The position numbers were made by a program, and so were the translations under genes. A stretch of 22,969 nucleotides of DNA, taken from NCBI GenBank assembly GCA_021792615.1, contig JAJYUJ010000037.1:1-22969 (forward strand). Reading direction: 5' to 3'. Origin of the DNA: a bacterium (GTDB taxonomy: Bacteria; JAMCPX01). Positions 18,886-20,836 of the stretch are shown here, piece after piece. The notes under the pieces were generated by a model. It had not been told where the DNA came from. It saw only the letters and a program-made list of their open reading frames with translations, and made no database searches. The stretch's first letter is position 1. The number at the start of each line of letters is the position of its first letter.

Positions 18886-18920
18886 AATTGATAATCTCAA
18901 AAAAAATATTCTTTTACATC

Positions 18921-18949
18921 TTGACAAAACGATTCATATCATGTTATTT
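18921..18949 (+). promoter_or_regulatory. candidate upstream promoter of the Lys-rich micro-ORF transcript
   Basis: A perfect TTGACA (18921-18926) is followed after 15-17 bases by TGTTAT/TTATTT (18942-18949). The -35 is strong and the -10 poor. A hairpin with 7-bp arms (18966-18985) would form near the 5' end of this transcript. Confidence 0.4.
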
Positions 18950-18965
18950 TCTTGAGCATGAAGCA

Positions 18966-18985
18966 CTTTAATCGTGAAATTAAAG
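18966..18985 (+). repeat. 7-bp inverted repeat touching an AAGGAG motif in the leader
   Basis: CTTTAAT (18966-18972) and ATTAAAG (18979-18985) are perfect arms around a 6-base loop. The second arm runs into AAGGAG (18983-18988), so folding would cover a ribosome site that has no proper ORF at good spacing. Confidence 0.55.
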
Positions 18986-18992
18986 GAGAATG

Positions 18993-19021
18993 TTATCATA
19001 ACTGCACGGTATAGGTATAAT
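18993..19021 (+). promoter_or_regulatory. candidate second promoter of the Lys-rich micro-ORF
   Basis: TTATCA (18993-18998), 17 bases, then a perfect TATAAT (19016-19021). Transcription would start near 19028, about 135 bases before the micro-ORF at 19164. A perfect 12-base palindrome AAGAGTACTCTT (19057-19068) lies in this leader and could be an operator. Confidence 0.45.
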
Positions 19022-19163
19022 GATGTTTTTGAAAACGTGTCAGCATTTACTTCTTCAAGAGTACTCTTCTCATTTCTTACATTTTCATATCCTTTTCAAA
19101 AAAATTACAGTCTAAAAATTATTCGCACTCTTTATAGAGAAAAAACCGGGAGGTGAAAAAATA

Positions 19164-19211
19164 ATGGCTACAAAGAAAAAAGCAAAAAAAGCAACTAAGA
19201 AGAAGAAATAA
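19164..19211 (+). CDS. 15-residue Lys-rich micro-protein
   Basis: ATG at 19164 is preceded by GGGAGGTG (19148-19155), an excellent ribosome site, and encodes MATKKKAKKATKKKK before TAA. Ten of fifteen residues are Lys, the rest Ala and Thr, like the tails of histone H1-like bacterial proteins. It has promoters upstream and a strong terminator starting 33 bases after the stop, so it forms a self-contained transcription unit. It is not a fragment of a longer frame. Possible roles are a nucleic-acid-binding peptide, a leader peptide or a chance ORF in a small RNA; sequence cannot decide. Confidence 0.5.
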   Translation: MATKKKAKKATKKKK

Positions 19212-19243
19212 ATGAACCAGGTCTGAATTTGACTTACTGCATA

Positions 19244-19281
19244 GGGCTGAACTTGCTTCAACAAGTTCAGCCCCCTTTTTT
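19244..19281 (+). terminator. strong intrinsic terminator after the Lys-rich micro-ORF
   Basis: Twelve perfect base pairs: GGGCTGAACTTG (19244-19255) and CAAGTTCAGCCC (19262-19273), with a 6-base loop, two C, then six T (19276-19281). It is among the clearest terminators in the window and lies in a region where no long gene ends. Confidence 0.9.
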
Positions 19282-19600
19282 AGAAAAGAACACATTGGAT
19301 ACTAATTATGTTACACTATAATAGAGAAATAAACCAGCTGTCAACGGTTTTTATCTAAACATTAAAACAATTGAATATCAATATGTTAGTAATTATTACT
19401 CCATAAAATATATCTATTTTGTATTACTTCTTGTAAAACAAGATGTTTATAGGAATAGATGAAGTGGCAATTTATTGAAAAACCATGCGGAATGTTGTAA
19501 AATAAATGATTAAATTCAATTAGTTGTGCCTTTAAACCCTATAAAATCTATATATAGCGTTGTTTTTTTGAGTAAAAATATCGTGTTATTATCTCAGAAG
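19282..19600. other. AT-rich noncoding stretch with a TATAAT box and small palindromes
   Basis: No supported gene is present over this stretch. It holds TTGGAT-16 bases-TATAAT (19295-19322), a possible plus-strand promoter. It also contains a perfect 13-base palindrome AGTAAT-T-ATTACT (19388-19400) and a hairpin TCTTG-5-CAAGA (19429-19443). Base composition is much more AT-rich than the surrounding genes. It would form a leader of about 310 bases for the micro-ORF at 19643. Confidence 0.5.
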
Positions 19601-19640
19601 CTTAACCTGAAAAAGAGGATTTGACAATAAGGAGGTTAAG
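19601..19640 (+). promoter_or_regulatory. inverted repeat sequestering the ribosome site of the 14-residue micro-ORF
   Basis: CTTAACCT (19601-19608) and AGGTTAAG (19633-19640) are perfect 8-bp arms separated by 24 bases. The second arm contains the end of AAGGAGG (19629-19635), the Shine-Dalgarno sequence of the ATG at 19643. Folding would hide part of the ribosome site, a layout typical of translational control. Confidence 0.5.
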
Positions 19641-19642
19641 AA

Positions 19643-19687
19643 ATGCACGCAGCAGCAGAAAACTCTATAAATAAAAGATTAGATTAA
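19643..19687 (+). CDS. 14-residue micro-ORF with a strong ribosome site
   Basis: ATG at 19643 follows AAGGAGGTTAAGAA and encodes MHAAAENSINKRLD, then TAA. The Shine-Dalgarno sequence is near-perfect with ideal spacing, which is unlikely by chance in such AT-rich DNA. The last 23 bases overlap the 3' end of the convergent outer-membrane protein gene. It could be a leader or regulatory peptide, or the surviving start of a lost gene. After the stop the frame continues for only about ten codons with no recognisable protein. Confidence 0.4.
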   Translation: MHAAAENSINKRLD

Positions 19688-20384
19688 ATCCCATGCTTAG
19701 ACTATCAAGCGGTGCAATAGCTTTTCCGTTCTTTTGATATAAGTTTATGTGTCTGTACCTCAACTCCAAGCCCAGGGAAGTATAAGATGTGAGGTATGTT
19801 TCCATGCCTATCATGCCCTGTCCTCCGGCACCGAAGCCTGAACCCGAACTCTGTGCTCCGTTTATTTTTTCGTTCAGGGAAAGGGACGCGAGATAAACAG
19901 GACCTACGCCCGCATAAATGCCGAAGCTGTTCATGGGTACGTAGAGCAGGATGTTCAGGGATACCGGAAAACCGGAGTAGGAATTTTCTATTGTTGTTCC
20001 TGAAATGGTATTCGATGATAAGCCATAGAGATAATCAAATTCTCCGGTGAGCATGAGATCCTCGGTTATCCCGTAGCGTGCGGTAACCCCGACATAACCT
20101 ATGGATCCTGTTTGATTGGTCAGGGTACCGGTCGAATCGGGATTTATATTGTAGGATGAATAAGCGAAATCTGCGTTTACCGACCATCTGTTTTTTATGG
20201 ACCTCCCTCCTGTTTCCGGCGAAACTGGAACAGCACCGGGTACCGTAATAGTGCATGCAGCGGTAGACGAAAAATCAGTTGAGGTGACATCTTGCGCTTC
20301 ACCGGCATACACCGGTGTACCGGACACTCCTGACAAGAAGATGAACAATGAAAGTACTGCGGACATGACTAATAGTTTTTTCAT
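19665..20384 (-). CDS. outer-membrane beta-barrel protein
   Basis: The 239 residues start with a signal peptide (1-27, ending PVYAG). An unordered stretch follows, then alternating strands beginning WSVNADFAYSSYNI and ending SLSMGFNLIFYL. It resembles small eight-stranded OmpA/OmpW-like barrels; no lipid or peptidoglycan-binding domain is seen. Its ATG overlaps the stop of the upstream HxH membrane gene (TAATG), so the two are translated together. AAGGAGA lies before the start. Substrate unknown. Confidence 0.75.
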   Translation of the reverse strand: MKKLLVMSAVLSLFIFLSGVSGTPVYAGEAQDVTSTDFSSTAACTITVPGAVPVSPETGGRSIKNRWSVNADFAYSSYNINPDSTGTLTNQTGSIGYVGVTARYGITEDLMLTGEFDYLYGLSSNTISGTTIENSYSGFPVSLNILLYVPMNSFGIYAGVGPVYLASLSLNEKINGAQSSGSGFGAGGQGMIGMETYLTSYTSLGLELRYRHINLYQKNGKAIAPLDSLSMGFNLIFYL

Positions 20385-20836
20385 TAGAATTTTTCTCCTT
20401 TTGCCTCTCGAATGTGACTACCTATAGGTTTTATCCTGTTCCATATATTGATAAAGAAAAGCACGATACCGGCTATCTCACCGAAAGAGCCTGCCACAAT
20501 GGTCCACGCTATCCAGCGGGAAAGTATGAACCCATTGAGAATTTCACCGGTAGAACGCACCGCGATTGCTGCAAACATCAGGTAAAAAGTAATCTCTGCA
20601 ATCAAGGGACTGTAAAAAACCTTTTCTCTCGGTCTCGGGAAAAGCCAAAGCGCAATCCCCATGATAAGCATGATGACGAATCCTACCAGAATTAAATGGG
20701 TGTGCGCTGCGATCATGGATTGGGGGACACCGGAGCCGGATATATTGATCCTGTATGTCATATATCCGCCCAGAACCAAACCGAGTACCAGAAATAAAAT
20801 GGCCGATTTTATATAATATCGTGCAAGTGTAAACAT
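20384..20836 (-). CDS. small four-helix membrane protein resembling a cytochrome oxidase subunit I fragment
   Basis: The 150 residues form four hydrophobic helices (about 9-27, 43-67, 78-97, 107-133). Helix 2 contains AHTHLILVGFVIMLIMGIAL followed by WLFPRP. This H-x-H (H45, H47), Gly and Pro pattern recalls the heme-binding helix of CcoN/NorB-type heme-copper oxidase subunit I. Full subunits have 12 helices, so this is either a short family of its own or a degenerate relative. It starts after GGAGCG and overlaps the outer-membrane gene. Confidence 0.65.
   Translation of the reverse strand: MFTLARYYIKSAILFLVLGLVLGGYMTYRINISGSGVPQSMIAAHTHLILVGFVIMLIMGIALWLFPRPREKVFYSPLIAEITFYLMFAAIAVRSTGEILNGFILSRWIAWTIVAGSFGEIAGIVLFFINIWNRIKPIGSHIREAKGEKF

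Follow-up and report, generated by a model that had tools for sequence, protein, structure and literature searches.

The window analysed here, a stretch of 22,969 nucleotides from a genome of 2.54 Mb in 77 contigs, carries at positions 18921-19281 of its plus strand what holds up, judged by its sequence, as a single-gene unit made up of a promoter, a 5' hairpin, a Shine-Dalgarno sequence, a 15-codon open reading frame and a terminator. The promoter (18921-18950) joins a -35 hexamer TTGACA (18921-18926) through an 18-nt spacer to an extended -10 element, TGtTATTTT (TG at 18942-18943, hexamer at 18945-18950), with 10 of 12 consensus matches and the TG preceding the -10. From the predicted start site a leader of about 207 nt (18957-19163) begins, and close to its 5' end lies the hairpin CTTTAAT-cgtgaa-ATTAAAG (18966-18985), which overlaps AAAGGAGA (18983-18990). 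The Shine-Dalgarno sequence GGGAGGTGA (19148-19156) is placed 7 nt from the ATG at 19164, the frame (19164-19211) encodes MATKKKAKKATKKKK and closes with TAA at 19209-19211, and the intrinsic terminator (19244-19281) consists of a 12-bp stem, GGGCTGAACTTG/CAAGTTCAGCCC (19244-19273, 7 of the 12 pairs being GC), followed by CCTTTTTT. The initial annotation had described a complete unit of ribosome site, tiny frame and terminator, the ribosome site near-perfect and the 12-bp terminator trailed by a T-run, and every one of these parts is present in its place; the ribosome site and the start are kept in relatives, the frame is conserved, and the terminator folds well beyond shuffled sequences (z = -7.5). 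Its conservation places the unit, taken as a whole, far outside what chance would give.

Nine genomes form the home-phylum sample, in which the window's order and phylum amount to one family. The unit is single-copy, with Shine-Dalgarno sequence and terminator, in 6 of the 9. In G004 and G005 the locus lies at a contig end, and G008, an 84%-complete genome, yielded no orthologue of the neighbouring AMP-ligase, so that these cases look like missing data and not losses. The peptide is MATKKKAKKATKKKK in the window and in G003, MATKKKAKKATKKKKK in G002, MATKKKAKKTTKKKKK in G001, MATKKKAKKAAKKKKK in G006 and MAAKKKAKKAAKKKK in G007, and the ribosome site ahead of the ATG is GGAGGTGA or GGGGTGA in all relatives. 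Between species the peptides differ only by Thr/Ala exchanges and by one Lys, and over codons 2-14 the minimum numbers of changes at positions 1, 2 and 3 are 3, 0 and 12, placing 12 of 15 at the third position (P 3e-4, a value that ignores relatedness and transition bias). All three first-position changes are Thr/Ala exchanges, and the six third-position changes in Lys codons are all between A and G. Changes so restricted show that selection acts on the peptide. The locus had been proposed to encode either a peptide or a small RNA, with conservation of the frame in close relatives as the suggested check; this check, once run, found the encoded amino acids conserved and most changes synonymous, in the home phylum and, as far as resemblance goes, in Acidobacteriota too. 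The result sustains the Lys-rich peptide unit and disfavours RNA as its sole function. The possibility that the peptide is the tail of a longer protein was rejected, as the frame upstream of the ATG closes within 2-16 codons in the home phylum and is not conserved. Weak DNA matches in other phyla (L008-L012, E ~1e-4) showed no corresponding tiny unit.

Taken by themselves, matches to the promoter consensus are about as numerous as chance predicts for so A+T-rich a sequence (7 found, 6.2 expected), and the promoter claims therefore rest on conservation. In the alignment the -35 hexamer and TGnTA(A/T)TTT are retained in G003 and G002, and TTGACA and TGATAGTTT are present in G004 (L005). Two promoters and two leader inverted repeats had been proposed initially, and one of each is borne out: the promoter at 18921 is supported by its conservation and the repeat at 18966-18985 is conserved, whereas the second promoter, TTATCA/TATAAT at 18993-19021, is lacking in G002 and the other repeat is not conserved. 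Within the genus, the first ~35 nt and the last ~25 nt of the leader are conserved and its middle diverges; there is hardly any change from the -35 hexamer through the hairpin CTTTAAT/ATTAAAG and AAAGGAGA, and the hairpin arms are identical in G003, G002 and G004. Read by eye, G007 has a hairpin of other sequence (TTACAT/ATGTAA) in the corresponding place, and in G006 a short leader replaces the long one while the frame is retained. The hairpin may shield the 5' end of the transcript. Folding of the whole transcript is no better than that of shuffles (z -1.2). The outer terminator stem GGGCTGAA/TTCAGCCC is invariant in five members of the phylum, with GGCTGAA/TTCAGCC read by eye in G007; this core, GGCTGAA/TTCAGCC, is invariant across the unit-bearing genomes of the phylum, and the inner pairs appear by eye to change together. 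A 60-codon leader frame (GTG, 18974-19156), open also in G003 and G002, was considered and is not supported: its GTG has no ribosome site, the middle of the leader diverges, and in-frame differences are, by eye, mostly amino-acid-changing.

Similar units are found in Acidobacteriota. A scan of one genome per species, seeking the peptide closely followed by a stop, returned the home phylum and several Acidobacteriota; Alphaproteobacteria, Omnitrophota and Aenigmatarchaeota contributed a small number of longer Lys-rich frames. A strict peptide pattern with at most 2 mismatches matched 73 of 250 family genomes around Acidobacteriota G063, some of these matches lying inside other Lys-rich frames. 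The start-site pattern AGGGAGAAT-N3..10-ATG-NCN-NNN-AAR-AAR matched 180 of these 250 genomes, which belong to a family of soil bacteria distant from the home phylum, a count of which only part was read and in which a few of the listed matches differ in start context and are possibly other genes; all 30 loci fetched from this search (30/30) encode 13-24 amino acids, with hairpins of the GGGGACGC/GCGTCCCC kind following. Collected together, 77 distinct Acidobacteriota units encode 13-24 amino acids, and in one case 30; their peptides are mostly MATKKKAKKxxKKKH or MATKKAAKKPAKKAAKKAAKKK, and the units also have GGGAGAATAG and a terminator. Measured against single-base shuffles, a TTGAC...TATAC promoter, close to invariant, is present in 71 of the 77 (0.25 expected), a terminator-like site in 74 (2.8 expected), and the 5' segment folds with a z of -3.3. 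Differences in peptide length are whole codons (13-24 and 30 amino acids), fixed Lys columns have A or G at position 3 and never AAY, and changes by codon position within the length classes are 7/5/18, 14/7/33 and 5/3/15 (P 2e-3 to 3e-5, again ignoring relatedness and transition bias). Two tiny Lys-rich units occur in Acidobacteriota G060 (L025, L162), with the differing ribosome sites AAGGAGGTATTC and AGGGAGAATAG, and likewise two in G078 (L180, L184). Free-standing Lys-rich frames of 20-53 amino acids in other genomes (L141, L142, L143, L030, L182) may be extended forms of such genes, and those at L030 and L141 have TTGACA promoter-like sites.

That the frame is a chance or non-functional one can be considered only a most improbable reading. 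A-rich DNA readily yields Lys codons, and the consensus promoter matches are no more frequent than expected, but the peptide is conserved across genera, near-identical units stand in Acidobacteriota, and reversed control patterns gave 0 matches in every genome scanned; on this evidence from sequence comparison, the frame is a real unannotated gene. Its distribution seems limited. The narrow ORF pattern is rare in the wider Acidobacteriota (9 of 119), and outside the home phylum a narrow N-terminal pattern matched 3 of 377 genomes, in frames of 20, 27 and 53 amino acids, so that the peptide is not a universal chromatin factor, although a pattern this narrow would miss divergent forms; because the patterns were built from known members, distant forms are undercounted. 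The genes of the two phyla may share common ancestry or may have converged, the latter being possible because shared descent cannot be proved from low-complexity peptides and the untranslated regions differ.

Dual-function small RNAs that encode small proteins, such as SgrS/SgrT and RNAIII, provide a natural comparison, since these and the unit are alike compact stand-alone transcripts with hairpins, a terminator and a small frame. If the transcript were chiefly a regulatory RNA and the frame its minor second function, its own promoter and strongly conserved terminator would fit, as would the covariation of the 5' hairpin in Acidobacteriota, where RNAalifold on 60 leaders recovered a hairpin whose pairs include three with 15-18 two-sided changes apiece, pairing being kept, counts in which related sequences enter several times. 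This reading is nevertheless unlikely, as third-position variation and whole-codon length changes show selection on the peptide, the home leader is mostly unconserved, and G006 keeps the frame despite its short leader. Unlike SgrS/SgrT and RNAIII, the unit has the frame and its start site as its most constant part across lineages, and no base-pairing region was identified in it. Against Rfam 15 the window gave no match at gathering score; sub-threshold matches at 18900-19300 (E 0.04-0.85; best 18.8 bits against a cut-off of 97) were dismissed. In one Acidobacteriota genome the strand opposite the tiny unit carries an Acido-Lenti-1 RNA (RF01687; L066:1185-1231), ~260 bases downstream.

The order of genes around the unit indicates that it stands alone. 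In the genus a YwiC-like gene is followed by the tiny gene, then, on the other strand, by an outer-membrane protein gene and a short COX1-like one, and then by the AMP-ligase gene, which in G006 is directly convergent with the tiny gene. In Acidobacteriota, with neighbours named by eye from their translations, the upstream flank is often a divergent thiolase gene, and downstream lies, according to lineage, a convergent UvrD-like or RmuC-like gene or a same-strand RsmE-like gene. Amino-acid attenuators, familiar from the leader peptides of the his, leu and thr operons, share with the unit a short frame rich in one amino acid and a terminator just downstream, and in an attenuator leader at this locus ribosomes would sense charged tRNA-Lys and so set whether the terminator forms. 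Gene order leads to the rejection of this reading, which is very improbable, because there is no fixed same-strand gene directly downstream: the next plus-strand coding gene in the window is 1.76 kb away, past two minus-strand genes, the next gene is convergent in G002, G001 and G006, and the Acidobacteriota neighbours vary as described, so that, unlike attenuator leaders, the unit has no fixed downstream operon. The Ala/Thr positions, which lysine sensing would not involve, likewise show a large degree of conservation, and predicted folds show no competing antiterminator pairing. Several further features of the neighbourhood were recorded. A 14-codon frame, MHAAAENSINKRLD, with an AAGGAGG site (19643-19687) overlaps the 3' end of the minus-strand outer-membrane gene; it is found with changes in G003, and its first codons are unalignable in G004, G002 and G001. 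At L019:2543-2850, compared with 19614-19634 of the window, the close relative G003 has ~290 bases more, an insertion there or a deletion in the window. A 150-amino-acid gene (20384-20836) with a weak partial match to cytochrome oxidase subunit I (PF00115, below cut-off) is conserved next to the outer-membrane gene in several relatives.

The peptide contains 10 Lys among its 15 residues, the rest being Met, Ala and Thr, and this Lys/Ala-rich, low-complexity composition is like that of histone H1-like bacterial proteins, in keeping with the histone-tail-like peptide proposed initially. The tails of AlgP, PhaF and chlamydial Hc1/Hc2 have the same composition of Lys with Ala, Pro and Thr, a KKAAKKPAKK-like rhythm and extreme positive charge. 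AlgP of Pseudomonas has a repeat region of 154 residues behind an N-terminal domain (PMC9239181), and Hc2 is 165-237 residues long (PMC2848022). Whereas AlgP and Hc2 are long, the window's protein consists entirely of a single 15-residue unit, served by its own promoter and terminator, and the likeness to AlgP and H1 is taken as one of composition rather than family membership. We give roughly even odds (about 0.5) that a dedicated single-gene unit produces a 15-residue microprotein acting as an isolated tail of the histone-H1/AlgP type. The promoter, 5' hairpin and ribosome site would yield an abundant, stable mRNA, and the product, from its composition, would be an unstructured cytoplasmic polycation, in effect a free histone tail or a polyamine encoded by a gene. 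Sequence specificity would play no part in its binding to the phosphates of DNA, RNA or polyphosphate, as H1-type tails suggest, and the bound peptide would compact, shield or space the nucleic acid or polyphosphate, with Ala/Thr/Pro spacers holding the charges in the KKxxKK rhythm of H1/AlgP-type tails. Against this, a peptide of 15 residues may be too weak a binder or may be degraded.

Many ribosome-associated factors are tiny and very basic, and a less probable reading is that the peptide acts on ribosomes or mRNA, and not on DNA or polyphosphate, in the manner of a small basic factor associated with ribosomes or RNA. The same-strand RsmE-like gene downstream in one Acidobacteriota subgroup (named by eye) would fit with it, but that neighbour is lineage-specific, and the 22-amino-acid form found no match in a PDB sequence search, in which low-complexity queries score poorly. 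Neither Pfam nor NCBIfam gave a match for related members of 20-53 amino acids, low-complexity sequences again scoring poorly and the 15-residue peptide of the window falling below the length limit, and literature searches, both with the peptide strings and on small Lys-rich proteins, found no report of the gene in the papers covered.

Returning to the isolated histone-H1/AlgP-type tail, it is a tentative extension that such units belong to a widespread, unlisted family of 12-30-residue microproteins, free histone tails made from their own strongly expressed units and serving as a gene-encoded polyamine that condenses nucleoid, RNA or polyphosphate in acid-dwelling lineages such as Acidobacteriaceae and the window's small candidate phylum, the putative link to acid habitats being drawn from the name Acidobacteriaceae and from isolate names that resemble mine sites. 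Frames below ~30 codons escape annotation pipelines and family libraries, and it is apparently for this reason that the tiny gene was missed. It would count as one of the shortest genes conserved in bacteria, and, the Acidobacteriaceae being culturable, it would offer a minimal system for asking what a bare tail of the histone-H1 type does in a cell.
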